Shown here: one piece after another, positions 1 to 63,508 of the stretch
Layout: each line of letters opens with the position of its first letter
Position numbering within the stretch: position 1 is the first letter of the stretch
Source: Apium graveolens
Taxonomy: Eukaryota > Streptophyta > Magnoliopsida > Apiales > Apiaceae
Reading direction: 5' to 3'
DNA length: 64,000 nt
Assembly: GCF_009905375.1 (NCBI RefSeq)
Contig: NC_133652.1
Location: 120,611,797-120,675,796, forward strand
Position numbers and translations under genes: made by a program
The notes under the pieces: model-generated
What the model saw: only the letters and a program-made list of their open reading frames with translations
What the model was told of the DNA's origin: nothing
The model's database searches: none

Positions 1-75
1 ACATAACAACACTTAGCAAATATTCGATTTCATTTCAAAACACTATATGAATCGGGTCTTTATTCATAAGTGGCT

Positions 76-542
76 CCCACTAGTTTTCCTAATTTATTCA
101 ACCCCTACATGAAAAATTAAGCATTCATAATGCTAGTGGGAATAGGGATCCTACATTCCATTACACAACCCCGGCTGTGGCACGAAACGCCATGTAATGT
201 TCAATAGGCAGACAACTCTTGTCAATTACATCTAATGTTATTCCCTAATCAAACTTTAGCCTCTTGAATAATTGAGTCACGGCTGTGGCACGACAAACTC
301 AATATTCTAAGTCAAGTCTAACCCAACATTCCGTACAATTGAATCAGTCCCCAAAGGCCCACGGCTGTGGCATGTAACGACCTTTAGATTCTTATTCAAT
401 GTACACATCTCTATGTAATAGACAAGTATTTCTTATTTCGAAATCAAAGCCCTCGGCTGTGGCACGAAACGACAATGATTCAAAAATAAGAACTACTTTC
501 TACCATGTTGGAAGGCTATGACCGACACAAGCCCGTTGTGTC
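76..542 (-). repeat. Array of long hairpins with a conserved loop motif (element X leader)
   Basis: Four copies of CGGCTGTGGCAC (or CGGCTGTGGCAT) lie at 172, 280, 362 and 454 on the plus strand. Each sits between inverted-repeat arms unrelated to those of the other copies: 150-165/193-208, 266-277/297-307 (with outer AATGTT/AACATT at 234-239/325-330), 333-357/381-404 and 430-446/476-492. The last pair matches at 14 of 17 positions. Two more hairpins without the motif flank the array: CCCACTAG/CTAGTGGG at 76-83/133-140, and GACACAA/TTGTGTC at 524-530/536-542. The sense strand of the element is minus, so the RNA loop reads GTGCCACAGCCG. The motif is constant while the stems differ, which is the pattern of a selected structure rather than a simple tandem repeat. 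Confidence 0.8.
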
Positions 543-1220
543 ATTGGCCAATTACTACTTGATATTATTTAAGAGGGATTATATTACGTTACAATCATAA
601 TCATATTATAAAGAGATTCTTCCTTTTAAATTAAATATTTTAAATCAATAATCAATAATCAGATGATTCCCAGATCGGGTGGAGCATTGTCAAGAGGCGT
701 CACTTAATAACCCTTTCTTACAGATAGAAATCTGTTGTTGACAGAATCATCCTTTCTCTCATATCGAAAATTCATATTCAATTACGTGTTTCATAAACAT
801 AAGAATCTCATGATTGTATTCATAATATTATTCTTAAGGTTATGAAACAATTTCACTATACTAGGTTTTCTAACAAATGCCTTATGTTCATTTAAGTTCA
901 CCTAAATCTATCATCGCATGATAAACTAAGCATATATCACATATATCAACATGAATAAACATCAAGGTAGGCATTTTATATCATCTAGTACATTAGTCTA
1001 AGCATTATACATCTCTATGTATCACATGAAGCATTTAAAAGCAGTTAAAAACAGCTTTAAAACACTTCATGGAAATATAAACAGTTCAAAACTTTTATAT
1101 AAACTAAAATTGATCACTCCATTAGATCCATCTCCGAAAAATGAATCCAACGGTATATTGCACGCCTAAAACGGAGTTACGAAACTCCCAGAAAATCAAT
1201 TTTAAAATCAACAGAGGGGC

Positions 1221-1359
1221 TGTAACGCATTACAGGAACGCGTTACAGGACCTGTAACGCATTCCGGTGATGCGCTACACCCCATTTCAGCCATTAAAGG
1301 GTGTAACGCATTTCGTGAATGCGCCACAGGTGTGTAACTAATTCCCGGAATGCGTTACA
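1221..1359 (-). repeat. Four short hairpins with 10-11-bp TGTAACGCATT stems (element X leader)
   Basis: Arms TGTAACGCATT and AATGCGTTACA (with variants) recur four times: 1221-1231/1237-1247, 1253-1262/1270-1279, 1302-1312/1318-1328 and 1333-1343/1349-1359. Loops are 5-7 nt (acagg, tccggtg, tcgtg, cccgg). Each pair of arms matches at 9 or 10 positions out of 10 or 11. The mismatches include TAACG facing TAGCG or TGGCG. The array is close to the primer site in the sense direction and next to a run of 18 T (plus strand, ending at 1380). Confidence 0.85.
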
Positions 1360-1500
1360 CTCCTATTTTTTTTTTTTTTTGCTTTTAGCAGCCGTCAACA
1401 GCTTCCTCGATCGCCGTGCAGCCGTCCTTCTCTGTCCTTTAACCGTGCAGCAGCAGTACAGCAAAAGCAGACAAGCAACAGAGATGTGCAGATGTACAGA

Positions 1501-1548
1501 TATATACAAACATATATATATATATATAATTTATATACATATATTTAT
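1501..1548. repeat. AT-rich microsatellite
   Basis: An imperfect (TA)n tract interrupted by short ACA and AAT units lies in the non-coding leader of element X. The small overlapping reading frames around 1319-1722 are chance frames through this low-complexity DNA. Confidence 0.8.
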
Positions 1549-1802
1549 ACTAATTTAATTACGAATTTAATTACAAGAACTTTAAAAATTCATAATAAAA
1601 AATCTATACATCATAAAATTATGAAAAAAATACCCAGACGATCTACAACACTTGAAGAACCCAGATCAACATTCAAAATTATTCTGAGAAACGATTTCTC
1701 ATCAGACAAAATTAATCCATGATATGACTTGTAAAAATCATAATTAATTCATACAAGCACATAAAATTCTGAAATTTTTACCACAGATCTATATGCATAC
1801 AA

Positions 1803-1818
1803 CCTGGCTCTGATACCA
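1803..1818 (-). other. Primer-binding site of element X
   Basis: The minus strand reads TGGTATCAGAGCCAGG, complementary to the 3' end of plant initiator methionine tRNA. It lies a few bases inside the LTR end and fixes the element's orientation. Confidence 0.9.
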
Positions 1819-1820
1819 TT

Positions 1821-3491
1821 TTAGGATTTTAATCGCAGCGGGGGCATGGTAAAATACTTTTACACATATAAAATCCAAACAAAAGCATACAGATCATGAA
1901 TAAAAATTCGAGGGATAGAATCTAACCTTTAAAAATAAGTCGGAGACAACGATCAGAGATCCTTAGCAGTTGCTCCTCAAGTGTGAAGCACTCCACCGGT
2001 ATCCACCAAGAAAACGATGTTAAGGAGGAGGAAGGAGGTGGAGAGAATTGGGTTTTCCAAACTTTTTGGGTTTTCGGGTTTGATGTGGGTTAGAATAAAA
2101 TAGGGTCTATAATAGTATATTTATAGGCAAAATTTTCAGCTGAAATTTTCCCATAAATAATATTATTATTATCCCATTTATTATTCTCATTAATAATTAA
2201 AACACCTTTTAATTATTAATCCTTTTTCTAAACACTATAGAAATAATTCTCTCTCTTGATTTAATTTCCAAAAATTAAATCCTTAATTAATAATATTAAG
2301 AACTTTTCTTAATTAATTTATAATCAATTAAATCTCATTTAATCAATTATTAAATTTGCCAATTAATTATTTATTTCATAAATAAATAATTATTAGCCAT
2401 TATTAATTAATTCCTCCACCATTAAATCATTCTCTTTTTATGGTGTGACCCTGTAGGTTCAATATTAAGCCGGTAGTAGAAATAAATAATAATAAAACTA
2501 TTTTATCATTATTTATATAAATTCTCTAATTTATTAAATATGATTAATTAATTAATCACATTTATTCTACATCGTGAGGGATACTTCTCAGCATATCGCG
2601 ACTATCCGGATAATATGAATTCACTGCTTAGAATACCAAGAACCTATTTAGTGAATAGTTACCGTACAATAAACTCCTTCTACCCTACAATGTCCCGATT
2701 AAATACAAGGCATGGATCTCATGTCAAGCCTATCTAATTCAATCACTTTGCTTACCATTTACTATGCGTAGTTCTATGCAAATTAGAAACTCCTTTCTAA
2801 TTTCATTTACTCTGGCCAGAGATTCCTGAACTAGCATAAGTGGATCAGCCTAGAACATTCGCTTCCTTCACTGGAAGGGGTAGATCCTTTATTGATCATA
2901 CACTATCTTCGTGTACAAATTCCTATACCCAGAAGAGCCCTAATAATTGTCCCTGGAGACTAAGAACTAAACCAAAGCATAGTTCAGTGTACACAAGATG
3001 ACTATGATGACCTCAAGTCTAAGGATACTTGTACAACTATCACTATGTGAACAACTGCTGACACGTGAGTGAACTCCATCAGTTGTTCAGCTGTGCGAGT
3101 CATGTTCAGTGAACTTATTCCATAATAAGCACCTACATACTAGCTATAGTGTCACCACACAAATGTCTATGAGAACAGACATCCTTCATAATGAAGCAAG
3201 CATAGTATGTACCGATCTTTGCGGATTATTAATTACCAGTTAGTAATCCTATGACCAGGAACTATTTAAGTTTAGAGTTATCATCTTTTTAGGTCTCACT
3301 ATTATGATCTCATCATAATCCATAAAAAGCTATACTCTAAACTATGGTATATCTTATTTAAACACTTAAATAGATAAAGCCCGTAATAAAAAAAAACAAG
3401 TCTTTATTAATATCAATGAAATCAAAACAGATTACATAAAAGTTATTCCTAAATCCTAATGCATGATTGGACTTAGGACATATTCCTTTCA
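1821..3491 (-). repeat. 5' LTR of element X, about 1.67 kb
   Basis: The minus-strand start TGAAAGG is at 3491. The end is at about 1821, just before the primer site; the exact last bases are uncertain because no clean terminal CA is visible (the end reads CCTAAAA). A TATA box (2118-2125) is followed by a pyrimidine-rich leader, so U3 is roughly 3491-2150 and R-U5 the rest. An AT-rich block around 2150-2560 has many short TTAATTAA-type palindromes. No partner LTR is in the window. Confidence 0.75.
2118..2125 (-). promoter_or_regulatory. TATA box in the LTR of element X
   Basis: TATAAATA on the minus strand lies about 300 bp before the LTR end and is followed by a C/T-rich leader (CTCTCCACCTCCTTCCTCC). 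It lies within the imperfect inverted repeat CTATAA/TTATAG. Confidence 0.55.
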
Positions 3492-6083: not shown

Positions 6084-6468
6084 TTTCTGTAACGCCCCAA
6101 ATTCGGGGTCAGGAATCTGGGTCGCCACACAATCCTTCAATCATGTATAACCTGTATTAACTCAATAATCCAACAATTCCATATCACAGACCCCCAACCT
6201 CACACACTCACAAGTTATAGCCTTAGAAACGACGTACAACAAGTATCATCTATTATTAAAACTCAAATGTACTTTACAGGATCTCAAACAATTATTCGTA
6301 ACCTCTACATGAAGTTACAATAATTACGATTGATATCTTATACCTATCTGATACTCTGGCCCACCTGAGACAAAGCTGCCAGGGATTCTCCCATGGCTGC
6401 AACCGACTAAGTCCCACACTGGCATACTGGTTATCTGTTGTGTTGTGACATTTAAAAGAAAGCAAGAG

Positions 6469-6484
6469 TGAGCAATAATGCTCA
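6469..6484 (-). repeat. TGAGCA/TGCTCA hairpin (C LTR)
   Basis: Perfect 6-bp arms around a 4-nt loop, about 380 bp before the LTR end. It belongs to the TGAGC hairpin class found in every Gypsy LTR here. Confidence 0.75.
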
Positions 6485-6715
6485 GCCATAATAATAAACA
6501 ATATGAAAAGGCTGTTAAAGAAATTATATTAATCCGTATAAGGATATGTATTTATTCAAAGTAGTTTTCTTGGTGATACACACCTCTTTTCAAAACAATT
6601 ATTTGATTTGACTTTTTATCCTGCAAATACTTTAATGGTAAACCCAACACCTAGGCTTGGGTTACGGTATTGCATCTCAATTCTAATTGAAAGAATAGGA
6701 CATACTCTGGAGCTA

Positions 6716-30740: not shown

Positions 30741-31257
30741 AGTACTTATGGAAGTCAGGACTTAAGGATATCAGTACTTATGTTATCAGGAGATAATCAT
30801 CAGAAGATAGATATCAGAACTTAAGTGCTGAAGGACGATCAGATAAGGACAGTAGATGATTAAAGGAAAGAAGATCAAGATAAACATAAGAAGAGATATG
30901 CATGAAGAAGGAATTCTGTAAAGAATGGAATACTTGGAAGAAAAGATATCTGATTGATATATTTTAGGAAGCAGAATTATATTCCATATCAATTAGCGAT
31001 TATCTTGTAACTGTGTAGTATATAAACACAGACATAGGGTTTACACTATAAGTGTTATCATTATTAGAGAAGATTATTCATTGTAACCCTAGCAGCTCTC
31101 GTGATACTTGTTCATCACTGAGAGGTAACAGTTCCATACTATAACAGAGTTTATTGTTTCAATATAGTTTGTTTTCTGTTACTTAAGTTCTTAAAGTTCG
31201 ATTTGAGTGTACTATACACTGTATTCACCCCCTCTACAGTGTGTGTGTGACCTAACA
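30741..31257 (+). repeat. 5' LTR of E2, truncated (517 bp)
   Basis: It matches 42193-42712 of the 3' LTR; the first 95 bp are missing and replaced by the gag remnant of B. It ends GACCTAACA and includes TATCAGAACTT (30812-30822) and the TATA hairpin. Confidence 0.9.
31011..31031 (+). promoter_or_regulatory. TATA box in a hairpin loop (E2 5' LTR)
   Basis: CTGTGT (31011-31016) and ACACAG (31026-31031) are perfect arms around agTATATAA. In the 3' LTR (42466-42486) the first arm is TTGTGT, still pairing in RNA through G-U. Confidence 0.7.
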
Positions 31258-31259
31258 AT

Positions 31260-31277
31260 TGGTATCAGAGCCTATCT
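31260..31277 (+). other. Primer-binding site of E2
   Basis: TGGTATCAGAGCCTATCT, two bases after the LTR, complementary at its 5' part to initiator methionine tRNA. Confidence 0.92.
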
Positions 31278-31313
31278 GTTAACATACATACAGTTAAAGA
31301 TCCAAACACAATC

Positions 31314-33542
31314 ATGTCAGACACAGAAACTCCAACTAAGCCTACCAAAACTGAGGAATCACCAAAGACACAAATTCAGAGTCGGTATGAGACTATCAGA
31401 GTTCCCATACTGAGACCATCTGAATATCCCATATGGAAGGTAAGGATGACCATGTTCCTGGAAGCAACAGATCCAGAATACCTTGATAGAATCAAGGAAG
31501 GCCCTCACAAACCAACCAAGCTCGCTGTTGCAATTGCAGGTGAAGCAGCAAAGACCGTACCAAAAGAGAAGAGTGATTATACTGCTGAAGACATAACATC
31601 AATTGCTAAGGATGCTAAGGTACGACACTTACTGCATAGTGCCATTGATAATGTAATGTCAAACAGGGTAATCAACTGCAAGACTGCTAAGGAGATATGG
31701 GATGCTCTGGAAACAAGGTGTCAAGGAACTGACACAATTAAGAAGAACAGGAAGATAATACTCACTCAAGAGTATGAACACTTTGACTCAAAGACTAATG
31801 AGTCATTGAATGATTTATATGATAGATTTGTCAAACTTTTGAATGATTTGTCATTGGTTGATAAAGAGTATTATCTTGAAGATTCAAACCTTAAGTTCCT
31901 GTTAGCTCTTCCTGAATGCTGGGATTTGAAGGCAACGACAATAAGAGACAACTACAATCTTGATGAAACAACTCTTGACGAAATCTATGGAATGCTCAAG
32001 ACTCATGAGCTGGAGATGGAACAAAGAAGCAAGAGGAAAGGAGGAAAGTCAAGGACAGTTGCTCTTAAGGCTGAAGAAGAATTCCCCAAAGCAGCTTCCT
32101 CAAAGAAAGACAAGGGTAAAGCTCTTTTTATAAAGTCTGATACTGATTCATCAAGTTCTGAGAGTGATGATGACTCAGATTCTGAAAGCTTGCCTGAGAC
32201 TGATGCTGATGAGGAGATGATGAAGCTGTGTGCTCTTATGGTGAAAGGAATCACAAAGATTGCATACAGGAAGTTCAGGAAGGGAAAGAAGTTTTCAAGG
32301 AAAGGCATAAGTTCTGATAAGAAGAATTTCAGAAGATCTGAAGGCAGAGGAGGAAAGTCTGACAGAGGAGATTACACCAATGTTAAATGCTATAACTGTG
32401 GTGAGAAAGGCCACATATCTCCTGACTGCAAGAAGGTAAAGGGTGATAAAGGAAAGGCTCTTGTCACAAAGCAGAAAAGCTGGACAGACACCTCAGACTC
32501 TGAAAGTGAGGAAAACTATGCATTGATGGCAAATGCTGATAAAGAAAGTGCTGAGAGCAGTTCTGAAGCTGCTGAAACAAAGGGCAACAAGAAAAATATT
32601 CTAGTTCTGGACAGTGGATGTTCAGGACATATGATTGGAAATAAGGCCCTACTATCAGACTTTGTGGAGAAAGCTGGCCCAAGTGTTTCTTATGGAGGTG
32701 GCAACATTGGAAAAACATTGGGATATGGCAATATCAATCTTGGAAATGTCATAATTAAACAAGTAGCTCTGGTCTCAGGACTTAAACACAACCTACTGAG
32801 TATAAGTCAAATCTGTGACAGAGGTTATCATGTTGATTTCTTTGAAGAACACTGTGAAATTGTGAGTAAATCTAAAGGTAAAGTTGTTCTGAAAGGATAC
32901 AGGCGTGGTAACATTTATGAAGCTAAGCTTTCAACAAGTACTGATGGTTCTGCAATCTGTCTGATGAGTAGAGCATCAATTGAAGAAAGCTGGAATTGGC
33001 ATAAGAAACTCTCTCATTTAAATTTCAACAATATAAATGAACTGGTCAAGAAAGATCTTGTGAGAGGATTGCCAAACACAGTATTTGCTCCTGATGGTCT
33101 TTGTGATTCATGTCAGAAAGCCAAACAAAGGAAATCTTCATTCAAGAGCAAGACTGAATCATCAATTCTTGAGCCTTATCATCTACTACATGTTGATCTA
33201 TTTGGTCCAGTAAATGTCATGTCTATTGCAAAGAAGAAGTATGCGTTGGTCATAGTGGATGAGTTCACCAGATACACATGGGTGTATTTCTTGCATACAA
33301 AAAGTGAAATTGCATCAACCTTGATTGATCATATCAAACATCTGGATAAAATGGTCAATGATTCTGTGAAAGTTTTAAGGAGTGATAATGGCACTGAGTT
33401 CAAGAATTTGATAATGGAAGAGTTCTGCAAAAGCCATGGAATAAAGCAGGAATTTTCTGCTCCTGGAACTCCACGGCAAAATGGAGTTGTTGAAAGGAAG
33501 AATAGAACTCTCATTGAAGCTGCACGTACAATAAGATGGTGA
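31314..33542 (+). pseudogene. gag, protease and integrase of E2 (742 codons, 3' end deleted)
   Basis: One open frame. The gag part resembles the Copia UBN2 family (KEIWDALETRCQG, LNDLYDRFVKLLNDL), followed by a Lys/Ser/Asp-rich stretch and a CCHC knuckle CYNCGEKGHISPDC from residue 359. Protease: VLDSGCSGHM with Asp433. Pre-integrase zinc region: WHKKLSHLN (His563) to CDSCQKAK. Integrase core: Asp628 in LHVDLFGP, Asp691 in RSDNGTEF and Glu727 in GVVERKNRT, the DD35E spacing. The frame breaks after EAARTI, where a stretch of about 40 codons found in E1b is deleted, shifting the frame. Start chosen 37 bp after the primer site. Confidence 0.93.
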
Positions 33543-34334
33543 AGAAAAAGAAGCCAAATCTGAAATATTTTCATGTATTTGGATGCAAGTGTTTTGTTCT
33601 CAAGACTCATCCTGAACAGCTATCAAAGTTTGATCTAAAAGCTGATGAAGGAATCTTTGTTGGATATCCACTTTCCACAAAAGCCTTCAGAGTCTATAAT
33701 TTGAGAACAAAAGTGGTCATGGAATCTATCAATGTCTCTTTTGATGACAAAAAGATTACTGGTCTTGAAGATTTCATTGACCATCAGCTGAGATTTGAAA
33801 ATGAAGACTCAAATTCTGATACTGAAAATCCTGACAGTCTAAGTCCTGATACTGTAAACTCTGATGGATTAAACTCTGATGTTATTGAAACTGTGGTGAC
33901 TACGTCAAAGCAAGATGCACCTATACAGGGGGAGCATAATCAAGATCCTACCACATCTCAAGAGACATCAGAACATGCATCTGGCTCTTCAAGTTCTGAT
34001 TCGTCAAGTTCTGATAAGCCAAGTTCTGATAGTGCTGAAAATCTAAATACTGAAGAATCCAACTCAGAGCATAGTTTCAGGGGGAGCATCAGAAAATGAA
34101 AATGAAGATAGCATGGATCATGGGGGAGCATCCAGTTCTAGAGAAAACCTTCCATCTGCAAGGAAGTGGACAAAATCACATACACCTGATTTGATAATTG
34201 GAAATCCTGATGCAGGTGTCAGAACTAAAACAAGTACTTCAAATGAATGTCTTTACAATTCTTTTCTCTCTCAGACTGAGCCAAAGAAAGTGGAAGAAGC
34301 TCTTCAAGATGCTGATTGGGTGCAAGCAATGTAG
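33543..34334 (+). pseudogene. Integrase C-terminus and pol linker of E2
   Basis: It resumes at KKPNLKYFHVFGCKCFVLK and GIFVGYPLSTKAFRVYNL, typical of the Copia integrase tail. A Ser/Asp-rich linker follows, with repeated SSD units encoded by the AAGTTCTGAT motif (33991, 34006, 34021). A frameshift lies near 34085. The segment NECLYNSFLSQTEPKKVEEAL leads to the reverse transcriptase and ends at a TAG (34332-34334) that falls where E1b has a glutamine codon. Confidence 0.88.
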
Positions 34335-35806
34335 GAAGAGTTGAATGAATTTGAAAGAAATAAAGTCTGGACCCTAGTGCCAAGACCAAAGAATAGATCT
34401 GTTGTTGGTACAAAGTGGGTATTCAGAAACAAAACTGACAGTGATGGCATAATTGCAAGGAATAAGGCAAGGATGGTTGCAAAAGGATATTCTCAACAGG
34501 AGGGAATTGATTATGATGAAACATTTGCACCAGTTGCTAGGTTAGAAGCCATAAGGATATTCTTGGCTTATGCTGCTCACAAAAAGTTTACTGTCTGTGA
34601 AAAGTGCTTTTCTCAATGGAGAATTGGAGGAGGAGGTATATGTTGAACAACCTCCAGGTTTTGTAGATACCAAACATCCAGATTTATGTCTACAGGCTTG
34701 ATAAAGCACTTTATGGACTTAAGCAAGCTCCTAGAGCATGGTATGAGACTTTAGCTCAGTTTCTTCTGGAAAGTGGATTCACCAGAGGGACAATAGACAA
34801 AACACTGTTCTACCTCAACCATGGAAAGGACTTACTTCTGGTCCAGATTTATGTTGATGATATCATTTTTGGATCTACAAATGACAAACTTTGCAAGAAG
34901 TTTGCCAAACTAATGCAGTCAAGATATCAGATGAGTATGATGGGGGAACTTAGCTATTTTCTGGGCCTTCAAGTTAAGCAGAATGAGGAAGGCACTTTTA
35001 TTTGTCAAACCAAGTACACCAGAAACTTGCTGAAGAAATTTGGAATGCAAGATTGTTCAAGTGCATCCACTACAATGGCCACTGCAACAAAACTGGATAA
35101 GGATACCGTTAAATCAGTAGATATTACTGACTACAGAGGTATGATTGGCTCTCTACTCTATCTAACTGCTAGTAGACCTGATATCATGTATGCTACCTGT
35201 CTTTGTGCAAGATTTCAAGCAGATCCAAGAGAACCTCACTTAACAGCTATAAAAAGAATCTTTAAGTATCTTAAAGGAACAGCTGCTCTGGGATTATGGT
35301 ATCCTAGGGAATCAGATTTTAAACTAATAGGTTACTCAGATGCAGATTTTGCAGGTTACAAAATTGACAGGAAAAGCACAAGTGGAAGCTGCCAATTTCT
35401 TGGAGGCAGATTGGTTTCTTGGTACAGCAAGAAACAAAAGTCAATTTCCACATCAACTGCAGAAGCAGAGTATATTGCTGCAGGAAGCTGTTGTGCACAG
35501 ATTCTTTGGATGAAGAATCAGTTACTGGATTATGGGTTAACATATTTCAAAATCCCTATTTACTGTGATAATCAAAGTGCTATTGATATGACAGGTAATC
35601 CAGTTCAACACTCTATGACAAAGCACATCAGCATCAGGTACCACTTCATCAGGGAACATGTGGATGAAGGTACAGTGGAATTGCATTTTATTCCCACAGA
35701 TCAACAACTAGCAGATATCTTCACAAAACCACTGTGTGAAGCTACTTTTACAAGATTGGTAAATGAACTTGGAATGGTTTCAGGTTCTTTCTCTAAATCT
35801 GCTTAG
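34335..35806 (+). pseudogene. Reverse transcriptase and RNase H of E2
   Basis: The RVT_2 family is clear: [53 protein letters not shown], active site YVDD (34850-34861) and MGELSYFLGLQV. RNase H follows: YSDADFAGYKIDRKSTSG, STAEAEYIAAGSC, YCDNQSAI, KHISIRYHFIREHV and LADIFTKPL. A short deletion near 34595 removes residues around the first catalytic Asp region and shifts frame; another shift lies near 34698. The last 297 codons (34913-35806) are open. Confidence 0.92.
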
Positions 35807-37155
35807 TCTTGTTCTGTGTTATCAGACTTTATGCTCAGTATTTACAGAATTAATCTCATTGTGTATTCTGTGCTTAATTGATAAATGTCTTTAAGTACTG
35901 ACTGTTGTCTGATATATGTTTCTAAACTCTGATAAGTGATATGTCTGTTCTAGTACCTATTCAATCCTATGAGGATAACTGTGCTAGATACTGACCTAGT
36001 AGTCTTAAATAAACAAATGATTCCATGTAAGAAGTAATTATTTCAGTGGAAATCTTATGACACTAGCAAATTCTGATAATTGAGCTTAGTTAAGTTTACT
36101 TTGTATATCTTATTACTAAGTCACAAATTAGAATAATGCTACTCATCTGTTAAGTTCTGATACTAGTAAAACTGCTGACAGTACTAAGTGCTGATAAACC
36201 TCACTTATCAAAAGAAAAAAGCAAAAAGATCAAAGAATAAAATCAGGCACTCCTTTGAGATCTAGAGTAAAAATGTGGAAGGGACGACCCAAGTGCATTG
36301 CTGGTATTAAGTAAATATGCATTAGAAAAGCAAAATATTTTCTTGGTGACTTTTCACACTCTATGATTACTGGAGAAATACTCTGATAATAGCATAAATT
36401 CTGATAAGCAGTCGTGACTCACTTACACTGAGAAGCCACTGTAAAATAGAATTTCAAAAGATGCATAAAATTAGCACAAAACAGTTGAGGTGGACTCAAG
36501 CATGAACTCATTCATCAGTAGGTTTCAGGACAATGACAGCTCTTTAGCAAAATTTTAGTTATGCCTTATTTCTAAGATGTACTGAAGTGAATCAGACTTT
36601 ACTATTTGTCTGTTATTTAGCTTAATGCACACACTAATCACTCCATCTGAATGATGAAAATTTCTGTGGAGGTCTATGTTATTTTAGATAAACAGTCATT
36701 GTGTCATTATGCACAAACTCTGAGGACAAGTTCTAGTTACACGTTCTAATGATTAATTTCTGAAGTCTATAACTCAGAACTTGTATGAGAATTTACTAGG
36801 ATGGGCATTCCTTTTTCGAGTTAAGAAATTATATTCTGATGACTGTTAAGTTCTGATATAAGTCTAAGTTCTGATATTACAGTCTAATCCTTTACTTGGC
36901 TTATCTGTGAATAAAATTTGGTAACAGTCTCAGTTCGAACTTGAATATGTTGAAGTGGAAGATTAATAGTCACTATGGTTAGGGTTAATGGTATTTGTAC
37001 CTGAACAGTCCAATGTTACTTGTTTCTTGTGCACTTTAAACCATGTTTCCTCTTTCCAATGAATGTTATTCTTTTTCACAGTCTAGGGAGACGAGGTAGA
37101 ATTAATTCTACCTGTCAGCATTCAATTTCTTTGCGTCTTCTGGTATTCTCTTGCC
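35807..37155 (+). other. Spacer after pol in E2, rich in AAGTTCTGATA motifs
   Basis: No coding frame is evident. AAGTTCTGATA occurs exactly at 36152, 36848 and 36866, with many shorter TTCTGATA or CTGATAA forms between 35900 and 36900. It precedes a TATA box, so an upstream regulatory role is possible. Confidence 0.65.
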
Positions 37156-37162
37156 TATATAT
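37156..37162 (+). promoter_or_regulatory. Candidate internal TATA box before the 81-codon gene
   Basis: CTATATATGC lies 75 bp upstream of an ATG. From about 30 bp downstream of the TATA to the ATG the leader is rich in C and T and contains no other ATG. Confidence 0.5.
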
Positions 37163-37236
37163 GCAACCACTTCACATCAGCCTTCCCATCACACTTTTAT
37201 CACAAACTCACTCTCGTTTTTCATTTATCATCACAA

Positions 37237-37482
37237 ATGGCTGAATTTGGTTGGTTCTACAATTATGGTGATGAGACTGTTCATGTCTTTTTGAATGGAA
37301 TTCCAACTCCATACCCTATCACCAACATTCCTCACAATCTCTGGATTCAATTTCCAGAGGTTATCAAACATGATCTGGTGGCCGTTCGAAGAGAACTTCA
37401 TCTTCATCGTCTTCGCCAGCAAGAGCGAATCATCCGACTCGCCATTCTGTTTGTCGAGAGTAGGAAGAAGAAGATGACTTAA
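37237..37482 (+). CDS. Small basic protein of unknown function in E2 (81 residues)
   Basis: MAEFGWFYNYGDETVHVFL begins in a good plant start context (CACAAATGGC). The N-terminal half is hydrophobic-aromatic (LNGIPTPYPITNIP, LWIQFP); the C-terminal half is strongly basic and likely helical (VRRELHLHRLRQQERIIR), ending SRKKKMT. No signal peptide, membrane helix or known motif is seen. It lies between pol and the accessory frame, in about 1.9 kb that has no counterpart in E1b. It has its own TATA-like box, and unlike every larger frame in E2 it has no stop. A nucleic-acid-binding role would fit the basic tail but is only a guess. Confidence 0.5.
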   Translation: MAEFGWFYNYGDETVHVFLNGIPTPYPITNIPHNLWIQFPEVIKHDLVAVRRELHLHRLRQQERIIRLAILFVESRKKKMT

Positions 37483-38016
37483 TCTTGTCTTCTTCCTATT
37501 TTTCTTCATCATCAGCTTTGTCAGGCTTCTTAGCTAGGACTAAGGCTGTTGATGTTAGGTTTAGAAGCTTAGGGAAAATCTTGTATAAGTATTGATGTAA
37601 TTTCCATTTCATGAATGTATTGTTTTGATATATTAATGAAAGTTGTTTTTACTTCAAGATTTTGTCTCTGAGTTCTTTTATCTTGTGTTGATAAATCCTG
37701 ATTGATATTCTGATGACCATATAAATTTTGTTTTATATTAAGTTCTGATTCGTTTTCAGCACTTACTTATCTAATTTATCTTGGTCATTTTCATGTGATG
37801 TATTTTCAGAATATTAATGATGCAGTGAAAAATAATTCAATCAGTGATAACGGTTTAAATTTTGAATTAAAATTGTTTCTCTTGATAAATGGAACGGTTT
37901 TTTTTCTTGAAACTAGGCAAATGGGTAAGTAATGATTCCTGTTTTCTCGAGCCCAGTAACTGTCCGTTATTACTGCATGTCTGACAGGTGTCCAACGGTA
38001 ACATTTTTGTTCAGAG
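37483..38016 (+). other. Spacer between small gene and accessory gene (E2)
   Basis: A 3' untranslated-like stretch (TGATATATTAATGAAAG) is followed by more TTCTGAT motifs (about 37690-37760) and then the promoter region at 38017. No frame is supported. Confidence 0.5.
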
Positions 38017-38022
38017 TATAAG
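38017..38022 (+). promoter_or_regulatory. Candidate internal TATA box before the E2 accessory gene
   Basis: GTATAAGTAC lies 158 bp upstream of the accessory ATG at 38180. The leader between them is pyrimidine-rich (TCTCTCTCCTTACTTTTAC) and free of ATG. E1b has the same layout at 48630. Confidence 0.5.
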
Positions 38023-38179
38023 TACAACAGAGAGAAGATTTCTTTAATCTTTTATTTTCTTCATATTTTATCTCTCTCCTTACTTTTACTCTCTTTCTCT
38101 TTATTTCTCACGTTGGTTTTTCATATAGACATTATATCAAACACCTAACAGGCATACTTGAATCTCAATTTTTTTTCAC

Positions 38180-41100
38180 ATGCCACCAAAGGATTTAATC
38201 ATTGATGAAGCTAAGTTTGTCCCCAACAACTATGCTGCAGTTCTTGATCACACTGAAGCTCCATCTGAATTGCACTTTGTGCAAGATCTTCTTGCTCATA
38301 GTGAGGTTGGGTATGCATTAACACAGCCTGAATTCTTTTCAAGCCAACAAGTTCTGAGGTTTTGGAGGACTGGACTTTTTGATGATGGTGGTCAACGTGG
38401 AACTCCCAGTATTATCTTCCAAGTGGGTGATTCATCCTTTGTAGTCACTCCTGGTACAGTACGCAGGGGTTTACATCTTCCAGAAGATTGTACTTTCTCA
38501 ATTTCAGAGGACTCAGCCCTTCGGGAGTTAATGGCTGAATTGGGATATGAAAAGAGTCTGACGAAACTTGGACAGTTGAAACGGGCTAATATCAGAAGAG
38601 AATGGAGTTTCTTCTTTGATTGCATCACCAAAGCTTTTGGGAACAAATGTTCGAATTTTGATGCTATTCCAATTCTGAGTCAGCACATAGGGTATGCTAT
38701 TATTCATCAAACTCATTTTGATTTTGCAACTGGAATAATTGGTTTTATTGGGGATAGGATGACAGAGGATTGATATGTTGTTTATTTTGCTAGATTCTGT
38801 CAACTTATTTACACTTATTGTACTGATGAACCTCATTTAGTCAGCACCAAAACCCCACCTTTTAAGGTTGCAAAATGATACTTTAATGACCTGGTAAATG
38901 CTGATACTAAGAAAAAAGTGCTTAGACCATTATAGATTCCTAAGTCTGTAAAACAGATCCTGGTAAATGCTGATCCTGATACTTATAGATCTGTTTACTC
39001 TGATGTCCAACCAACTCCAAACACCCAAAATCCATCAACCTCAGTACCTACCTCTCATTCTACTCAACCTACCCTCAGAACATATCTCAAATCCTATCTC
39101 TCCACTTCACAGACTGCTCAACCTTCATCTTCAGCACCTACTGTGAAATCTTCATCTTCTAAGCCAAAGAGGACAAAGAATGTTCCTCAAACACCTCAAA
39201 AGAGAAGGAGGATTGCATTGAGAGATGAATCTGATTCTAAGGAACCGGTTCCTGCTAGAGAACCTGTTGTAGCTGCAGCTGAGAAAGAGATTTCTCAGAA
39301 GGATTCTGAAATTGGGGGTTCTAGGCTTCTCAAGAGGCTTAGACGAATGACAGTTCCTGAAACTCCCTAGGAATCCAAATCAACAAGAAAGTACAAGAAA
39401 CAGAGGGCACAGAGGCCAGTTTCAGATGATGAAGAGGAAGCAACTAAGGAAGGGGATCAGGAATCTCTGATCTCACAAGACAAGGAATTTGCTCCAGTCA
39501 CTTCTTCTCCATCAACTCCATCTCAGGAAGCTGTATCTGACAAGGCTAACTCACCATTTGTGTCTCTTGTTGATCCAGGCACAAGTGCTGATATTGATGT
39601 TCAACACTTGGTTGTGTCTGAAGTATTTCTCTTAGAAGCTCCAACAGCAAATAATCCTTCCACAACACCTGTTCCTGATGCTGTTCAAACTCCAGAGTTA
39701 TCAACAACACCTTCTCTGCATTAAGATGCTGATGATCAGACTTTAGGTGAGCATCAGGATATGGCTATTGATCAGAACTTAGTATCAGTTCAGCAATTAG
39801 AGGATGCTGAAGCCTCCATTGCTACTCACACTGTTGTCTTATCAGAAGATACTGATTCTTTAAGTTCTGATGCTGCAAATGCTGGAGATACTGGTGATGA
39901 TGCTCCAACTGTAGATGCTGATGAAGCAGGTCCTTCAGGACATACTCCTCAACAGACTCTTCCTAAGTCTGAACTGGTAAAGAAGTTTGTTACTGGGGAA
40001 GCACCAGTACCTTGGAGTGAAACTCCTGCAGGTCAGGAGTGGACTAAGGAATGGAACTCAGTTTCATGTGTTCCAACTGACAAACATTTTGCTGAGCACT
40101 TGACTAAAGCTGATGAAATGTTAAATTCTGATGATTTTAAAACCCAGCTTAGAGTCACTGCATTGAGTACTAAGTATCTACAAGGTTTTCATTCAACTAC
40201 TCATGCAGAGCTACACAAGATCAGGAGAACTTTATCAAACAGGAACAAGTTTGGAAAATTGATAAGAAAAAGTTCTTTCAACCTACCATTGACAAGATTG
40301 CTTATATTGAGCAAACTCAAGAGAAACAACAAGCTCAGATTGATGAAATTCTGACAAATCAAGCTTCTCAGCAATCTCAACTTACTGAAATCCAATCCTC
40401 AGTGGAATTACTTATCTCTCTTTTACTACCTGCTGATGCCAAAAAGGGGGAGAAGGTAATTAAGTCTAAATGCAAAACTAACAAGACACTGCAAGGAAAG
40501 GATGATGGAAATGATGATCAAGGATACTCTGGAATGGGTAGCGGTCATAGTCAAGGTAGAAGGTTTACATCAAGACAAGCTAGTCACAGGACAAGTTCTA
40601 ATACTGGGAAAATAATAAGTTATGTTGCTGGTAAAATGATAAGTTCTGATGAACTTCTAGATCTTGATGAGGAAATGTCAAGACAGTTTTTTCTTCAAGA
40701 AAATCTAGGAATGGACTTGGAAAGTTTAAAGGAAGAAGAAGCCAGACTTAAATCAGAGAAAGTCACATCTAAATCTGAAGCTTCTGGTAAAAAGTCACTT
40801 CCAAAACTCAAAGGCATTGTGATCAAAGAAAGGACACATACTGAAGCAACATTGGCTAGATCACAACCACAGATAGATCCAAGATCCAAGGGTAAAGAAA
40901 AGGTTGGTGAACCTATCAAGGTTTATGTACCTCCTGAGGAAGAAGAAATTACTGATGAAAAGGATGATCTTGCTCTGACTTCAAGAAAAGTTCTTAAAAC
41001 AACCTCTGACATGGCTCAAGTTGTTCAGAGTCAAGAAATTGTAAGTTCTGATATTCAGAAGAAGCAAGTAACCTCTGACATAGCTCAAGTTAACTTGATA

Positions 41101-41889
41101 TCAGAAAATAGATCAAAGACACTCCTACCAGGATTCACTAAAGCAAAACAGACTCAATCTTTGAAGACTACTGCAAGTGGTTTTGAAGCAAGAGTAGTTA
41201 CTGGAAAGGAAGCTAGAGATAAAACTGGATTGGGAAGTGCTGATGAAAGAAGAGTACACAACACTACCAATGATCCAACTTCCTTGAGTGAACCAGGTAT
41301 TGGAGCAACTCCTGAGAGATTGAATCAACTGGAATCTGTACAGATGGTTTACCATACCTACTTGAAAGAATACATCATGTTGTATTTCATGACAGATGGT
41401 AGGGTTTATCATATAAGACAAAATGCCATTCCATTGAAGTATTTTGAAGAATTGGAACATGTACTTTTCTTACTTCAAGTGGATGACAGAATAACAGAGA
41501 CTGCTGCAAACTACTTAAAAGAACAGATTCAGAGACAGAAAAGGCTTTATTCTGTTAAGTCTGACAGCATATATGTTCCAAAGTACAGAGATCACAATGG
41601 TGATATTGTTGATATGAAGCCTAATACTGCACAGATCAGAACATATCTTGGTATTAAGGGACTTGAATTCAATCTAGAGTCTGACAAAGCTTATGTCATA
41701 AGACTAGATCAGGAGTTGAGAAAAGCAAAGATCAATGATCTCAGAGCTGTAATCTTTCAAACTGGTGAAGATACTGCAGAGCTTAAAGATGTCAAAAGGA
41801 GAATGATTGATGAACTCAGATATGCTGAGAAATGTTTGTTGAAGAACTATCTCAGAACAACTCCTGACATCAGAGAGATCAGAAAATGA
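38180..41889 (+). pseudogene. Large accessory protein downstream of pol (E2)
   Basis: About 1,235 codons in two frames. The first part (38180 to about 40250) has stops at 38771, 38876, 38933, 39368 and 39722; after one frameshift near 40250 the rest is open to 41889. The N-terminal domain (about residues 1-200: RRGLHLPED, ANIRREWSFFFDCITKAFG, SNFDAIPILSQHIGYAII) resembles the family I know as putative plant transposon protein, often found beside retroelements. A long Ser/Thr/Lys/Glu-rich linker with likely coiled coil follows. The C-terminal domain spans VYHTYLKEYIMLYFMTDGR to LKNYLRTTP. This is the position usually called env-like in SIRE elements, but I see no signal peptide or membrane helix. 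Confidence 0.82.
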
Positions 41890-42085
41890 TGAAGCCAAGT
41901 CGAAGATCTACAACTGCTTAAATTCTGATATTTATACAGACTGAAGTTGTTATCAGAAGTTGAAATTGGTAAAAGCTTTAAGGACTGTAAGTTGTAGTTA
42001 TCTAGTCTAATTCTCATGCATTTGTACTTAATGTTTTTGACATCATCAAATATCTGTTAAACTTGTATATTATGTTAATTTACAA

Positions 42086-42097
42086 GTTGGGGGAGAT
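42086..42097 (+). other. Polypurine tract of E2
   Basis: GTTGGGGGAGAT directly before the 3' LTR. Confidence 0.88.
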
Positions 42098-42712
42098 TGT
42101 TAGATATATTTGATAATGTCATGGCTAATATGTTTTATGTTTAGCTTTCAGATCTTACTTGAACAAGATTAATCAGTACTTAACTGTTGATCAGTACTTA
42201 TACTGGAAGTCAGGACTTAAGGATATCAGTACTTATGTTATCAGGAGATAATCATCAGAAGATAGATATCAGAACTTAAGTACTGAAGGACGATCAGATA
42301 AGGACAGTAGCTGATTAAAGGAAAGAAGATCAAGATAAACATAAGAAGAGATATGCATGAAGAAGGAATTCTGTAAAGAATGGAATACTTGGAAGAAAAG
42401 ATATCTGATTGATATATTTTAGGAAGCAGAATTATATTCCATATCAATTAACGATTATCTTGTAATTGTGTAGTATATAAACACAGACATAGGGTTTACA
42501 CTATAAGTGTTATCATTATTAGAGAAGATTATTCATTGTAACCCTAGCAGCTCTCGTGATATTTGTTCATCACTGAGAGGTAACAGTTCCATACTGTAAC
42601 AGAGTTTATTATTTCAATATAGTTTGTTTTCTGTTAGTTAAGTTCTTAAAGTTCGATTTGAGTGTACTATACACTGTATTCACCCCCTCTATAGTGTGTG
42701 TGTGACGTAACA
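42098..42712 (+). repeat. 3' LTR of E2, 615 bp
   Basis: It starts TGTTAGATATATTTG and ends GTGACGTAACA. It is complete and carries TATCAGAACTT (42267-42277) and a TATA box in a hairpin loop (42466-42486). Confidence 0.92.
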
Positions 42713-50972: not shown

Positions 50973-53164
50973 TGTAATAACCCCAATTTTTGAGAAATTT
51001 TGAAACCCTTATGAATAGTGTTTTTGCTGAACGAGAAAACTTTTCATGCCACGCTATGTAGGGGTTTTGTTATTGATCTTATGGGATATTATTAGTACTC
51101 TATGTGGTATATAAGTGTATGTAAAGATCGTCCGAATCCAATTCCGAACACTTTGATTTTTCCCGGAAATCCACAAGATACGGAGAGAATTGAGTATAAG
51201 GTAACAGGATAAAAAGGATTTAAATTAAAGGATTATAGGAGAGGATCATAAAAGGAATATAATATATTGAGAAAGGTTAAGGGAACCTAAGTAATAAGAT
51301 CCCGGGTATGATCCCTCAAACGATAAACGAGAACGAAAGATAAGCGAACCGTAAAACAAATAAGTGACCAAGAGACAAGCTTGTACAAGAAGCCAGGGAT
51401 TGTGACATCATCAAACCACAAGGTGTGGACAAGTGGGAGCATTGTGACATGTGCAAGGTGACACAAGCATGACATGGGAAGGAAGGAGGTGTGGTGACTT
51501 TTTAACCACACAAAACCAAGGGCAACTAGGTAATTCACTAAAGCAAACAACAAAAATCAACCAACCAAGCAAATCATTTCATTTCACCAAACAAAACACA
51601 AAAATCTCTCTTCTTCTTCTTCATGCTCTCGGGTGCATTTCTTAAAAAATGAAAGTCCAAGCTCCTCCACTTACTATTTAGCAAGGTAATTATCTAAGCT
51701 TCCCCATGGATAGTTACATACTTCCTATAAGTTTAAGCTTCTAATTCCAAGCCAATCTTTTTCTATAAATCATGAAAGAAGATGGTGAATAGTGTTTTCA
51801 AGAACTAAAATTTGTGTTCTTGAAGTTTTGTTTAGATTAAGCTTGGATAAGGGCTTTAAAGGTGATTCCAAGCCATTCTCTTGATTCTCTACTCTCCAAG
51901 GAAGGTATAAACTACAAACCCTAGCTTTAGTTTTGAGTAATTAGGATTGAATGTGTTTGATATAGCATATGTGAAGCATGATGCTTGAATGGTTGAAGTT
52001 TGGTTGAGTTTGTAGAGATTAGTTGGTTTTGTTGCATTGTTGGAGTTGTAAATCTTGGTAATTAGTTAAAGAACCTAAGTAAAGCTTTTAGTTCATGTGA
52101 GGAATAAGTATAAATGGTTAATGTGGATTTGTTGGGGCTGTTATGATGTGGATTGGAGGGATATTGGTTGTATGATTGATTTGGGGTTGATTTGTGGTTG
52201 GTATTGAATGGTTTAAAATTGGGAAAACGCGTAAACATAGCCGTCGTAACGTCCGATTTTCTTTAGACTGTTTTTGTGCATAACATTAGGACCCGAGAAC
52301 CCCCTGCTAGATTATGACCACTGCCATGTTTAGATAGTTCATATTACGAGCTTCGTTTTGATATGAAGTTCGTTCGATTCCGATGCACGGTTTAGGAGAA
52401 ACGACCGTTTCAAGTAACGGCGTTTCGCGAACGAAACTTTTCCCCTCGCCTTACTTTGAAACACAGGTTAAAGACCAAAAAGGGTTAATTAATGTATGAA
52501 ACATTTATGGTAAGTGTGTTAGGCAGTTGGGAAGACACTCGCAAAGGAATCGCTTTAAAACTCGTAAAGGTTAAATTATTAAAAATGGTGGAGCCGAGGG
52601 TACCCGAGTGACTTAAGCAAATCAGTGAGCGCAAAACAAGCGTTAGAGTCTAAGTTAGTTAAAGTATAGATTTACAAGTGATTTTGGTTTAATTCCAACT
52701 TACTTGTTGTTTATAGGTTACCAGACTCGTCCCGAGCCTTTTATCACCCCAAGTCGCTCAGGCAAGTTTTCTACCCGTTATACTGCTGTTGTGATGTAAA
52801 TATATGTATATGCATTATCTTGTGATAAGTGCATGATTGTTATTAGCAAATTTTGCGATATATTGGAGCATGCTGATATGGTATATATGCATGTCTGTTT
52901 CGTAATCTTGATATATATCTGTTGATTCAATTGATTCAGTTGATAATACCTATGCTAGAGGATAGCGGTAACTTGCATATACCCTTAGTATAGGGACCCA
53001 AAGGTGAAAATATTTTCTAAAACCGGGAGTCGAGGAGCCCGAGTAGGTTTTGTATATTTGGATATAAATATATATATATATATACTTATATATATATATG
53101 GTCATAGTTTTCAAAACTATTAATCGAATAAGGTTTATTCGATAACTTTAGCTTTATTTTATTA

Positions 53165-53367
53165 TTGAATATTATTTCGAATATTATTCGAAGGCGTATG
53201 ACTCCTTTATATTAAATGAATATTATTTTGAATATTCATTCGAGGACTTATGACTCCTTTTATTTTATTATCTGAATATTATTTGAATATTCATTCGAAG
53301 GCTTATGACTCAGCTTATTTTATTTATTGAATATTATTTGAATATTCATTTGAGGATCTATGACTCC
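53165..53367 (+). repeat. Four-unit tandem repeat in the F 5' LTR
   Basis: Four units of roughly 50-60 bp, each with GAATATTATTTGAATATTC, then TTCGAAGGCTTATGACTC or a variant. The copy in the 3' LTR is at 61370-61572. Confidence 0.85.
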
Positions 53368-54179
53368 GATTATTTGCTGAGAGATATTCTTTATTTTATT
53401 AAAGAATAAGGTGTCGATAATCAAACTTATTTTTGATTATTCAAATAAAGATAGTACTTTCATATAAGTATATCTTTGGTTATTTGATATCCATTTCAAG
53501 TATAAGTTTTAATACTTCTACTTCAATTATTTTTATAAAGATTATTCTTTATGGGAATATTATTTAAATAATAATATTCAGTCATTTTCTAAATATTCTG
53601 GGGACTGATTTACTTCATTAAATCAGCTTTACTCCAAACACTCTATAAAGTGTTTTCGAGTCTTCAAAATGATTTTTAAAAGTTAGAGCGGATCCCAAAA
53701 CTCATTTTTATATTTAAGATCTTCCTTTTTAAGGGGATTTAAATACTCGCTCAAAACCTGGGGAATCCGGCTCTGTGGTGTATTTTATATTCGCAACAAG
53801 GTTGCTGTTTTGTTAAATGAATCGATTACTTACCCAACACTCGGGAAGTAAAATTCTTGGAACAAGTTAATCCATTAACAGGCATCGCCTGGGAAATATC
53901 GGTGAGTTCTCCTTTCCAACTAGATACGACTTCTTGGTGAAGCCGTATCAACAAGTTTCTACTTGGGGAAAGTGGGGACGAGCTTTACGTTTCAGAGTCA
54001 TGGATTTCATCTGAACTAGGAGTGGCGTAAGTGGCCGAGTAGCGCCGGCCCAGCCTTATTATATTGGCCCAAATGGCCTGGAAGTTCCGCTAAGGCGGTC
54101 CATTCCTTAGGAGTTCAGTGTTCGGTTGACAAGTAAATCCGACAGGTTCTCCTCTACATGTAGAAAATGGTGGGGTTGC

Positions 54180-54239
54180 ACTACTACGACTGATCATCGT
54201 AAGTGGTCTTCCTGGCGCGGCAAACTCCCGTAATGAGTT
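54180..54239 (+). repeat. CTGATCA-loop and CCGTAAT-loop hairpins (F 5' LTR)
   Basis: ACTACTACGA (54180-54189 region) pairs with TCGTAAGTGGT (54197-54207) with one bulge, closing on CTGATCA (54190-54196). AACTC/GAGTT (54223-54227/54235-54239) closes CCGTAAT. Copies in the 3' LTR: CTGATCA at 62395-62401, AACTC/GAGTT at 62428-62444. Confidence 0.72.
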
Positions 54240-54848
54240 CATCATCCAATTGGATATTTCTGCAACACTACCCAGAGCACTTCGATAGAAAGGCTACGGT
54301 TGGGCGATTGTTGAGTGTTGGCAGGGTCAAGTTTTCAAAATGATGTTTGCATCAAATGAAGTATCTCATAACTTCATTTTATTTTGATGATATTTTAAAG
54401 GTTGAATCTATTCAAGTATTATCTTGTAGTCTCATCTATGTGATGAACTTTTGAACTAATTATAGCTTGAACGGTGGTAGTTCAAGTAGTATTTGGAAAG
54501 GATATAAGTATATTGGAGTATCTTGTAACTTCATCTTTTAAACTTATATCTAGTAAATGATTATCTTATTCATGGCAAAGATTTTCAGAAAAACGTTGAT
54601 ACAAGGTTAGATATATGAGATCACCTTGCAACGATATTTTTTTTATATACAGTTATACACTGGGACTTTGTGTATATTATGCATGGAAGAGGACTTCCAA
54701 TATTTTGAAAAGTATATATGTATATATACTGAATATTTTGCGACTTCATCGCATTAAGATATCAAACTTGGTTCATTTCTTTTGACCAAGACTTTCATGA
54801 GTACTATGAGAAGGCTCATATATTGTTAATCATTATACATATTATTTT

Positions 54849-54867
54849 GGTGGGCTTGCTGCTCACC
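54849..54867 (+). repeat. GGTGGGC/GCTCACC hairpin (F 5' LTR)
   Basis: GGTGGGC and GCTCACC pair over seven positions (one G-U in RNA) around TTGCT. It is the F version of the TGAGC hairpin. Confidence 0.65.
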
Positions 54868-55307
54868 CTTGCTTTCTTCTTTCATCACACAACATCAGAT
54901 AGACAAGATGAACCGGACCAAGCTCCCGATTCGCAAGAGGTTAGGAGACGTTCCGCAGTTTTCTAGAAGCACTGATGCCGCCATAGCTGAGGTAGGAACT
55001 ACCAATAGGCTAGGCTTTCAACTTTTGATGTATCAGATTATGTATATTTATGAATTGTAATAATGGCAAAGAAATGTAAATTTATTCAGAAACCTGTTTA
55101 AGGTGTATTGGCATATAATTGTGGAATAAAACGACTTGTGATTATTTTTGGATATTCATCTCTGAGACTATAACTTGTGGTGTGTGTGTTTATTGTGGGG
55201 TCACAGTACAGAGTAGTTGATTATTTATTAAGATTGGGTGTTATTAAGGGAAATGGAACTCGTGACAACCCGGATCCCCGACCCCGGATTTGGGGGTGTT
55301 ACAGAAA

Positions 55308-62100: not shown

Positions 62101-63508
62101 ATATCGGTGAGTTCTCCTTTCCAACTAGATACGACTTCTTGGTGAAGCCGTATCAACAAGTTTCTACTTGGGGAAAGTGGGGACGAGCTTTACGTTTCAG
62201 AGTCATGGATTTCATCTGAACTAGGAGTGGCGTAAGTGGCCGAGTAGCGCCGGCCCAGCCTTATTATATTGGCCCAAATGGCCTGGAAGTTCCGCTAAGG
62301 CGGTCCATTCCTTAGGAGTTCAGTGTTCGGTTGACAAGTAAATCCGACAGGTTCTCCTCTACATGTAGAAAATGGTGGGGTTGCACTACTACGACTGATC
62401 ATCGTAAGTGGTTTTCCTGGCGCGGCAAACTCCCGTAATGAGTTCATCATCCAATTGGATATTTCTGCAACACTACCCAGAGCACTTCGATAGAAAGGCT
62501 ACGGTTGGGCGATTGTTGAGTGTTGGCAGGGTCAAGTTTTCAAAATGATGTTTGCATCAAATGAAGTATCTCATAACTTCATTTTATTTTGATGATATTT
62601 TAAAGGTTGAATCTATTCAAGTATTATCTTGTAGTCTCATCTATGTGATGAACTTTTGAACTAATTATAACTTGAACGGTGGTAGTTCAAGTAGTATTTG
62701 GAAAGGATATAAGTATATTGGAGTATCTTGTAACTTCATCTTTTAAACTTATATCTAGTAAATGATTATCTTATTCATGGCAAAGATTTTCAGAAAAACG
62801 TTGAGACAAGGTTAGATATATGAGATCACCTTGCAACGATATTTTTTTTATATACAGTTATACACTGGGACTTTGTGTATATTATGCATGGAAGAGGACT
62901 TCCAATATTTTGAAAAGTATATATGTATATATACTGAATATTTTGCGACTTCATCACATTAAGATATCAAACTTGGTTCATTTCTTTTGACCAAGACTTT
63001 CATGAGTACTATGAGAAGGCTCATATATTGTTAATCATTATACATATTATTTTGGTGGGCTTGCTGCTCACCCTTGCTTTCTTCTTTCATCACACAACAT
63101 CAGATAGACAAGATGAACCGGACCAAGCTCCCGATTCGCAAGAGGTTAGGAGACGTTCCGCAGTTTTCTAGAAGCACTGATGCCGCCATAGCTGAGGTAG
63201 GAACTACCAATAGGCTAGTCTTTCAACTTTTGATGTATCAGATTATGTATATTTATGAATTGTAATAATGGCAAAGAAATGTAAATTTATTCAGAAACCT
63301 GTTTAAGGTGTATTGGCATATAATTGTGGAATAAAACGACTTGTGATTATTTTTGGATATTCATCTCTGAGACTATAACTTGTGGTGTGTGTGTTTATTG
63401 TGGGGTCACAGTACAGAGTAGTTGATTATTTATTAAGATTGGGTGTTATTAAGGGAAATGGAACTCGTGACAACCCGGATCCCCGACCCCGGATTTGGGG
63501 GTGTTACA
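59176..63508 (+). repeat. 3' LTR of element F, 4,333 bp
   Basis: Near-identical to 50973-55303, including the (TA)n tract (61271-61303, one unit longer), the four-unit repeat (61370-61572) and all hairpins. It ends GTGTTACA before TTGGT. Confidence 0.94.

Follow-up and report, generated by a model that had tools for sequence, protein, structure and literature searches.

Near the left end of the window, by which we mean the whole 64 kb stretch of celery (Apium graveolens) DNA analysed here, stand four predicted RNA hairpins that carry one and the same loop on differing stems. Do they form a working RNA structure of the retrotransposon in whose leader they lie, or are they a by-product of the way in which its family has spread? 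The array lies between the primer binding site (PBS) and gag, is repeated fourfold, and is retained in thousands of genomic copies and in both of two defective subfamilies. We tentatively propose that it is a cis-acting RNA structure, putatively a multivalent Gag-binding or packaging signal.

The host retrotransposon

The array belongs to an LTR retrotransposon, here called element X, which runs along the minus strand of the window in the order LTR, primer site, leader of about 1.8 kb with the array, and then gag. The limits of the 5' LTR (1819..3491, minus strand, about 1.67 kb) were set with the help of the paired LTRs in three further X copies. The LTR is adjoined by the primer binding site TGGTATCAGAGCC (1806..1818, minus strand), presumably a match of the initiator-tRNA type, and the part of the untranslated leader that is in the window, about 1.8 kb, follows at 1..1805 (minus strand). 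The coding part starts just outside the window, the ATG of gag being 32 bases past window base 1. An earlier, sequence-only reading had assigned the array to an untranslated retroelement leader, and this was borne out. Not far past this start the copy of X in the window is interrupted: its alignment to other X copies breaks off some 715 bases beyond the left window edge, where the other copies run on. LTR pairs are present in all seven copies that were fetched. The LTR starts with TG and has the PBS next to it, and at the 3' end of the window copy AAAA is found instead of CA.

The coding part was characterized in related loci. One frame (L080) matches Retrotran_gag_2 (5.2e-15) and zf-CCHC (1.4e-5), as in a copia-type gag with a CCHC knuckle, and the nearest named matches of gag are celery proteins, with more distant relatives in other plants. 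On the minus strand of another locus (L086) the domains follow in the order Pol_BBD, gag_pre-integrs, SH3_retrovirus and RVT_2; the rve core domain was absent from the domain matches of the frames scanned. We class the host element as Ty1/copia type with a non-canonical LTR end.

Elsewhere in the window, at 30741-42712, there is another copia element with end repeats of 0.52 kb, 97.5% identical, and with gag-integrase and RT frames. The intervals 50973-55303 and 59176-63508 repeat each other in direct orientation over 4.3 kb at 99.6% identity; a young element with very long LTRs possibly accounts for them.

The four predicted hairpins

The loop motif, CGGCTGTGGCAC/T, occurs as exactly four exact 12-mers in the window, at 172-183, 280-291, 362-373 and 454-465; when up to two mismatches were allowed, the 64 kb yielded two extra places, both with two mismatches. 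In the element RNA, that is on the minus strand, the motif reads GUGCCACAGCCG, just as had been stated before. All four hairpins are on the minus strand. Hairpin A (150..208, loop motif 172-183) is the last in the RNA and the closest to gag; hairpin B (262..311, loop motif 280-291) was delimited by motif search, local fold and RNAalifold pairs; hairpin C (325..412) has its loop motif at 362-373; and hairpin D (424..498, loop motif 454-465) is the first in the RNA. The array as a whole lies about 205-500 nt ahead of the gag start. Inverted arms around the four motifs had been reported at 150-165/193-208, 266-277/297-307, 333-357/381-404 and 430-446/476-492. They are indeed there, although imperfect. 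That their sequences differ wholly between copies goes too far: the stems do differ, but the units are partly related outside the motif, with hairpins C and D 86% alike over 28-nt stretches and A 71% like C.

The family is very abundant. In the 3.33 Gb genome, 8087 places match an 18-mer of the motif exactly and none matches the reversed control; the 56 distinct loci sampled by this 18-mer on contig C1 all carry at least part of the array. Genome searches with two loops returned 11 matches at a wider spacing, which are family members with indels, and none with an altered core base. A gag query from Theobroma led to a further lineage: 135 of the 33398 first-look candidates were scored, all 54-57% identical, and a leader piece from these matches (L134) also carries the array. 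Because the copies were chosen by the exact loop 18-mer, the constancy of the loop in our samples is biased. Among the loci L048-L077, 15 of 16 elements were aligned, the L051/L052 element being left out though it matches the array block. Partial alignments were also set aside, L098 in the X-Y comparison of arrays described below and L133 in the branch-wise tree tests and the decoy control; L111 and L119 are almost identical neighbours in the sample. The arrays of 36 aligned copies have a mean column identity of 95%.

Two defective subfamilies

Full copies belong to two subfamilies, X (the kind in the window) and Y. In three X copies the two LTRs are 98.4-98.9% identical to each other, and the internal region of X measures 4.4-4.6 kb. 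When searched with a gag query taken from an X copy and an RT query taken from a Y copy, the three full X copies all show gag similarity unbroken over residues 1-270 and have a common RT deletion. The four full Y copies all have a common central gag deletion with pol similarity present; their RT is largely kept in three and deleted as in X in one. The array is kept in all seven. Since X is without most of RT and Y without the centre of gag, full X and full Y copies likely depend on proteins supplied in trans, through partial deletion, as far as these few copies tell. The description of the element as non-autonomous is thus likely correct with respect to dependence in trans, but X is not simply coding-less, for a gag frame follows the leader. 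LARDs are high-copy plant LTR elements with a long non-coding stretch. The array family shares the high copy number and the long non-coding stretch with them; it differs in having internal coding, namely gag in all three full X copies and similarity to pol domains in all four full Y copies.

Two copies (L049 and one at L090:1-4600) have a Y-type leader and keep gag, and hence gag loss is not universal in Y-type copies; they are either mosaics or intermediates of X and Y. Hairpin D has lost 9 bases in one Y copy (L048). In subfamily Y the loop carries a C to U change at the same single residue in hairpins C and D, and both visible loops of L134 are changed at this residue too. Therefore the earlier claim of an invariant loop, true of the four exact copies in the window, does not extend to Y.

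Between the two subfamilies, identity is about 91-93% in the LTR and the array block and 77-95% over the gag-pol segments that could be aligned, and no alignment with Y was obtained for 961-1956 of the window (the LTR end and the first part of the leader). The possibility that X and Y share the array block only was ruled out, the LTR being common to both as well. Likewise, the array cannot be regarded as conserved in sequence, as it changes as fast as the LTR: fixed differences between X and Y number 16 in 349 positions of the array and 54 in 1517 positions of the LTR (p=0.35). The fewest fixed differences are seen in the leader block directly 5' of the array in the RNA (499..800, minus strand), with 2 in 302 positions (p=0.005 versus the LTR). 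This block includes a 7-bp hairpin, GACACAA/TTGTGTC, at 524-542. The X leader also holds a second array at 1218-1361, composed of four near-palindromes of about 30 bp (TGTAACGCATT...AATGCGTTACA). It folds far more strongly than the four-hairpin array (z to about -7.5, on both strands) and is within the stretch not alignable to Y.

Pairing and covariation

In the best ungapped register, Watson-Crick pairs are formed at 11 of 16 arm positions in hairpin A, 8 of 11 in B, 15 of 24 in C and 14 of 17 in D. Six further arm positions are C.A on the plus strand, which corresponds to G.U in the element RNA, and none is G.T on the plus strand (6/6, p=0.016). Local folds of the minus strand reach -21.2, -15.7, -26.0 and -27.3 kcal/mol for A to D, compared with -12.5, -11.8, -17.3 and -16.2 kcal/mol for the plus strand, so that the minus strand folds better at all four units. 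Compared with 3000 random positions of the window, arm pairing has p = 0.28, 0.033, 0.002 and 0.001 for A to D, and p=0.0001 for the mean of the four units. The excess is smaller against the element's own leader (p = 0.47, 0.13, 0.055 and 0.018), a background that is itself structure-rich. By the arm-pairing score hairpins C and D are clear, B is moderate and A is weak. The fold z score is -4.3 for 401-520, around hairpin D, and nothing out of the ordinary was seen by this score for A and B.

Comparison of copies provides some possible signals of selection on the stems. RNAalifold, which had been proposed in the sequence-only reading together with alignment of the copies, gave 148 pairs on the 36 arrays, two of them with a double change. 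One, at 162/196 in hairpin A, is a double compensatory change from U-A to C-G that separates X from Y (19 versus 15 of the 36 copies). One pair of hairpin A could be read in at least 6029 copies of the genome, as U-A in 3615 cases, C-G in 1849, U-G in 326 and C-A in 239; the excess of U-G over C-A (p=0.0003) fits RNA pairing, though it is not a clean value because the copies include tandem and related ones. Hairpin A of L134 shows two stem changes, A-U to G-U and G-U to G-C, and neither breaks its pair. With a structure predicted from the window sequence alone, pairs are kept against not kept 9 to 4 among shared variants and 21 to 37 among singletons (p=0.03). In a tree of 56 copies, 11 pairs are kept, 5 broken and 3 gained on internal branches, compared with 52 kept and 62 broken on terminal ones (p=0.07). 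Pairs predicted within the loop motif itself fail on the internal branches (2 kept, 6 broken), and for this reason the motif itself is better taken to be unpaired, as one large open loop.

The contrast was sharper on deep branches, defined as those with at least 4 tips on either side in a tree of 57 sequences to which L134 had been added: 8 stem changes are kept, 3 gained and none broken, versus 50 kept and 61 broken on terminal branches. With the stem columns excluded from tree building, the deep changes are 8 kept, 4 gained and 1 broken; read as plus-strand RNA, the same deep changes are 2 kept, 7 broken and 2 gained. The unguarded deep count (11/11) gives p=0.0002, but it repeats pairs. When each pair is counted once and an ambiguous change at 355 is scored as a break, 7 of 8 are kept, compared with 51 of 112 on terminal branches (p=0.02). 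The change at 355 is an X-Y difference in hairpin C that leaves the pair unformed in Y, and in 18 of the 36 copies.

However, controls remove much of this contrast. In decoys made by sliding the pairing partners 1 to 6 columns, the deep branches have 42 pairs kept and 14 broken, and the terminal ones 344 kept and 253 broken; the decoys shift in the same direction, and therefore a large part of the deep-branch shift can arise without any structure. Against this rate, 7 of 8 kept pairs are not unusual. Changes from Watson-Crick to G.U versus A.C number 8 versus 2 on deep and 50 versus 28 on terminal branches (p=0.27), with no significant difference either when the stem columns are excluded from the tree (8 versus 4, p=0.61). 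The double-changed pairs number two, a count reached by 320 of 500 shuffles, compared with 1.6 in shuffles, and further pair types show no excess. The fraction of paired cells (98.0 versus 97.8%) and the covariation score (0.054 versus 0.050) are above all 500 shuffles, both being inflated by relatedness; slid versions score 0.009-0.033 against the real 0.054. As proof of structure, the deep-branch test is thus ruled out by the slid-decoy and shuffle controls, and covariation cannot be established because the copies are 95% alike. The earlier claim of selection on structure retains in its favour the double compensatory change and the run of pair-keeping changes, and did not pass the decoy and shuffle controls; the comparison of copies is no more than suggestive of selection on the RNA structure of the stems.

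Comparison with known motifs and systems

No match to Rfam 15 was found in the 64 kb window at the gathering score, and no description of the motif was met in the literature searched, where its loop letters occur in an unrelated paper. The 18-mer has one match in each of 36 viral contigs, all of 58-67% GC, which we judged to be chance; searches of viral contigs with the two-loop pattern and with the LTR-end pattern gave none. The two-loop pattern has 11 matches in genome contigs, all bacterial, and the flanks of three of these (L040, L043 and L047) are unlike the array. In the last of them, from a Lachnospiraceae MAG, TGCCACAGCCG followed by CTGTGGCAT is seen in three places at 6264-6560, as possible tandem hairpins; the likeness to the loop motif is probably due to chance.

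In retroviruses, packaging signals stand between the PBS and gag, and psi comprises hairpins with like loops in this interval that are bound by nucleocapsid. The celery array, a putative signal, occupies the same interval and differs from psi in having another loop and sequence, four copies and differing stems. Packaging signals of small RNA viruses can likewise be hairpins. For one such virus, which has a coat protein, short degenerate repeated signals have been proposed to act in packaging, according to an excerpt of PMC6475782; the array, in comparison, is clustered in one leader, and its role is putative. The nearest system appears to be the barley Ty1/copia pair BARE1/BARE2, in which the gag-lacking BARE2 is packaged in trans and is said to keep the dimerization and packaging signals (excerpt of PMC3735527). 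A leader before gag and a gag-lacking partner are common to both systems, as described there; this likeness is one of description, and the excerpt mentions no repeated constant-loop hairpin array. Moreover, the deletions in the celery family are complementary, X being without RT and Y without the centre of gag.

Possible function and alternatives

In the proposed mechanism, the four hairpins would present the same loop, GUGC[C/U]ACAGCCG, on stems of little sequence importance. A protein would recognize the loops, most likely Gag of the element itself via its zinc-knuckle part, and the four copies would give avidity. Gag from gag-bearing members may then package the RNA of gag-bearing and gag-deleted members alike. 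Gag would be the natural candidate reader, since the array is common to both kinds of members and is at the position of a packaging signal. We regard the array as a candidate for, and not a member of, the packaging signals. Among packaging, dimerisation and protein binding, the three roles put forward in the sequence-only reading, dimerisation is the least likely because the loop, by inspection, is not self-complementary. A bolder version, in which the loop code is a shared ticket by which an RT-less gag-bearer and a capsid-less pol-bearer are co-packaged and keep each other moving, in a multipartite-like retrotransposon partnership, is in our opinion unlikely.

It is also quite possible, if doubtful, that the array has no RNA function: an old duplication of a hairpin-like unit would have been followed by drift, the motif would be a DNA or small-RNA target or a matter of recent descent, and the recent spread of the family would explain the likeness of its copies. 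The close identity of the LTR pairs in three X copies (98.4-98.9%) and of the 36 arrays (95%) agrees with this, as do the shared flanks of the units, the rate of change of the array, no lower than that of the LTR, and the failed decoy and shuffle controls. Such drift does not readily account for six non-Watson-Crick arm positions that are all G.U in the element RNA, with none on the other strand, for a double compensatory change fixed between X and Y, or for minus-strand folds that beat the plus strand at all four units. At the level of DNA, the palindromic arms could act as a cruciform or as a binding place for protein, for instance during integration or silencing, and the arms of all four hairpins are inverted repeats in DNA too. 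We consider this very improbable, as strict Watson-Crick symmetry has been lost: on a plus-strand reading of the RNA, 7 of the 11 deep changes disrupt pairs, a count that shares the weakness exposed by the decoys.

A role in the control of gag translation appears rather unlikely. A structured leader with many AUGs would need shunting or internal entry, and the hairpins could serve ribosomes or host RNA-binding proteins. The part of the leader in the window indeed contains 59 ATGs in 1.8 kb, seven of them inside the array just ahead of gag. Shunt leaders, though, are not known to call for four like loops, and all four full Y copies keep the array without the centre of gag, although pol could need it. 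In a plant pararetrovirus the leader is highly structured and known to function in nuclear export, according to a 2025 review (PMC12786077), which is in line with such a function. The same review uses 'packaging' 8 times and none of the terms 'hairpin', 'secondary structure' and 'dimerization'; going by these term counts, little seems to be known about the choice of RNA by plant Gag proteins. If the array is a Gag-binding or packaging signal as we propose, it would be a candidate that is short, repeated and clearly delimited and that belongs to a very abundant family, making the choice of RNA by Gag directly testable. Its presence in complementary defective subfamilies may be viewed as a natural experiment on packaging in trans.
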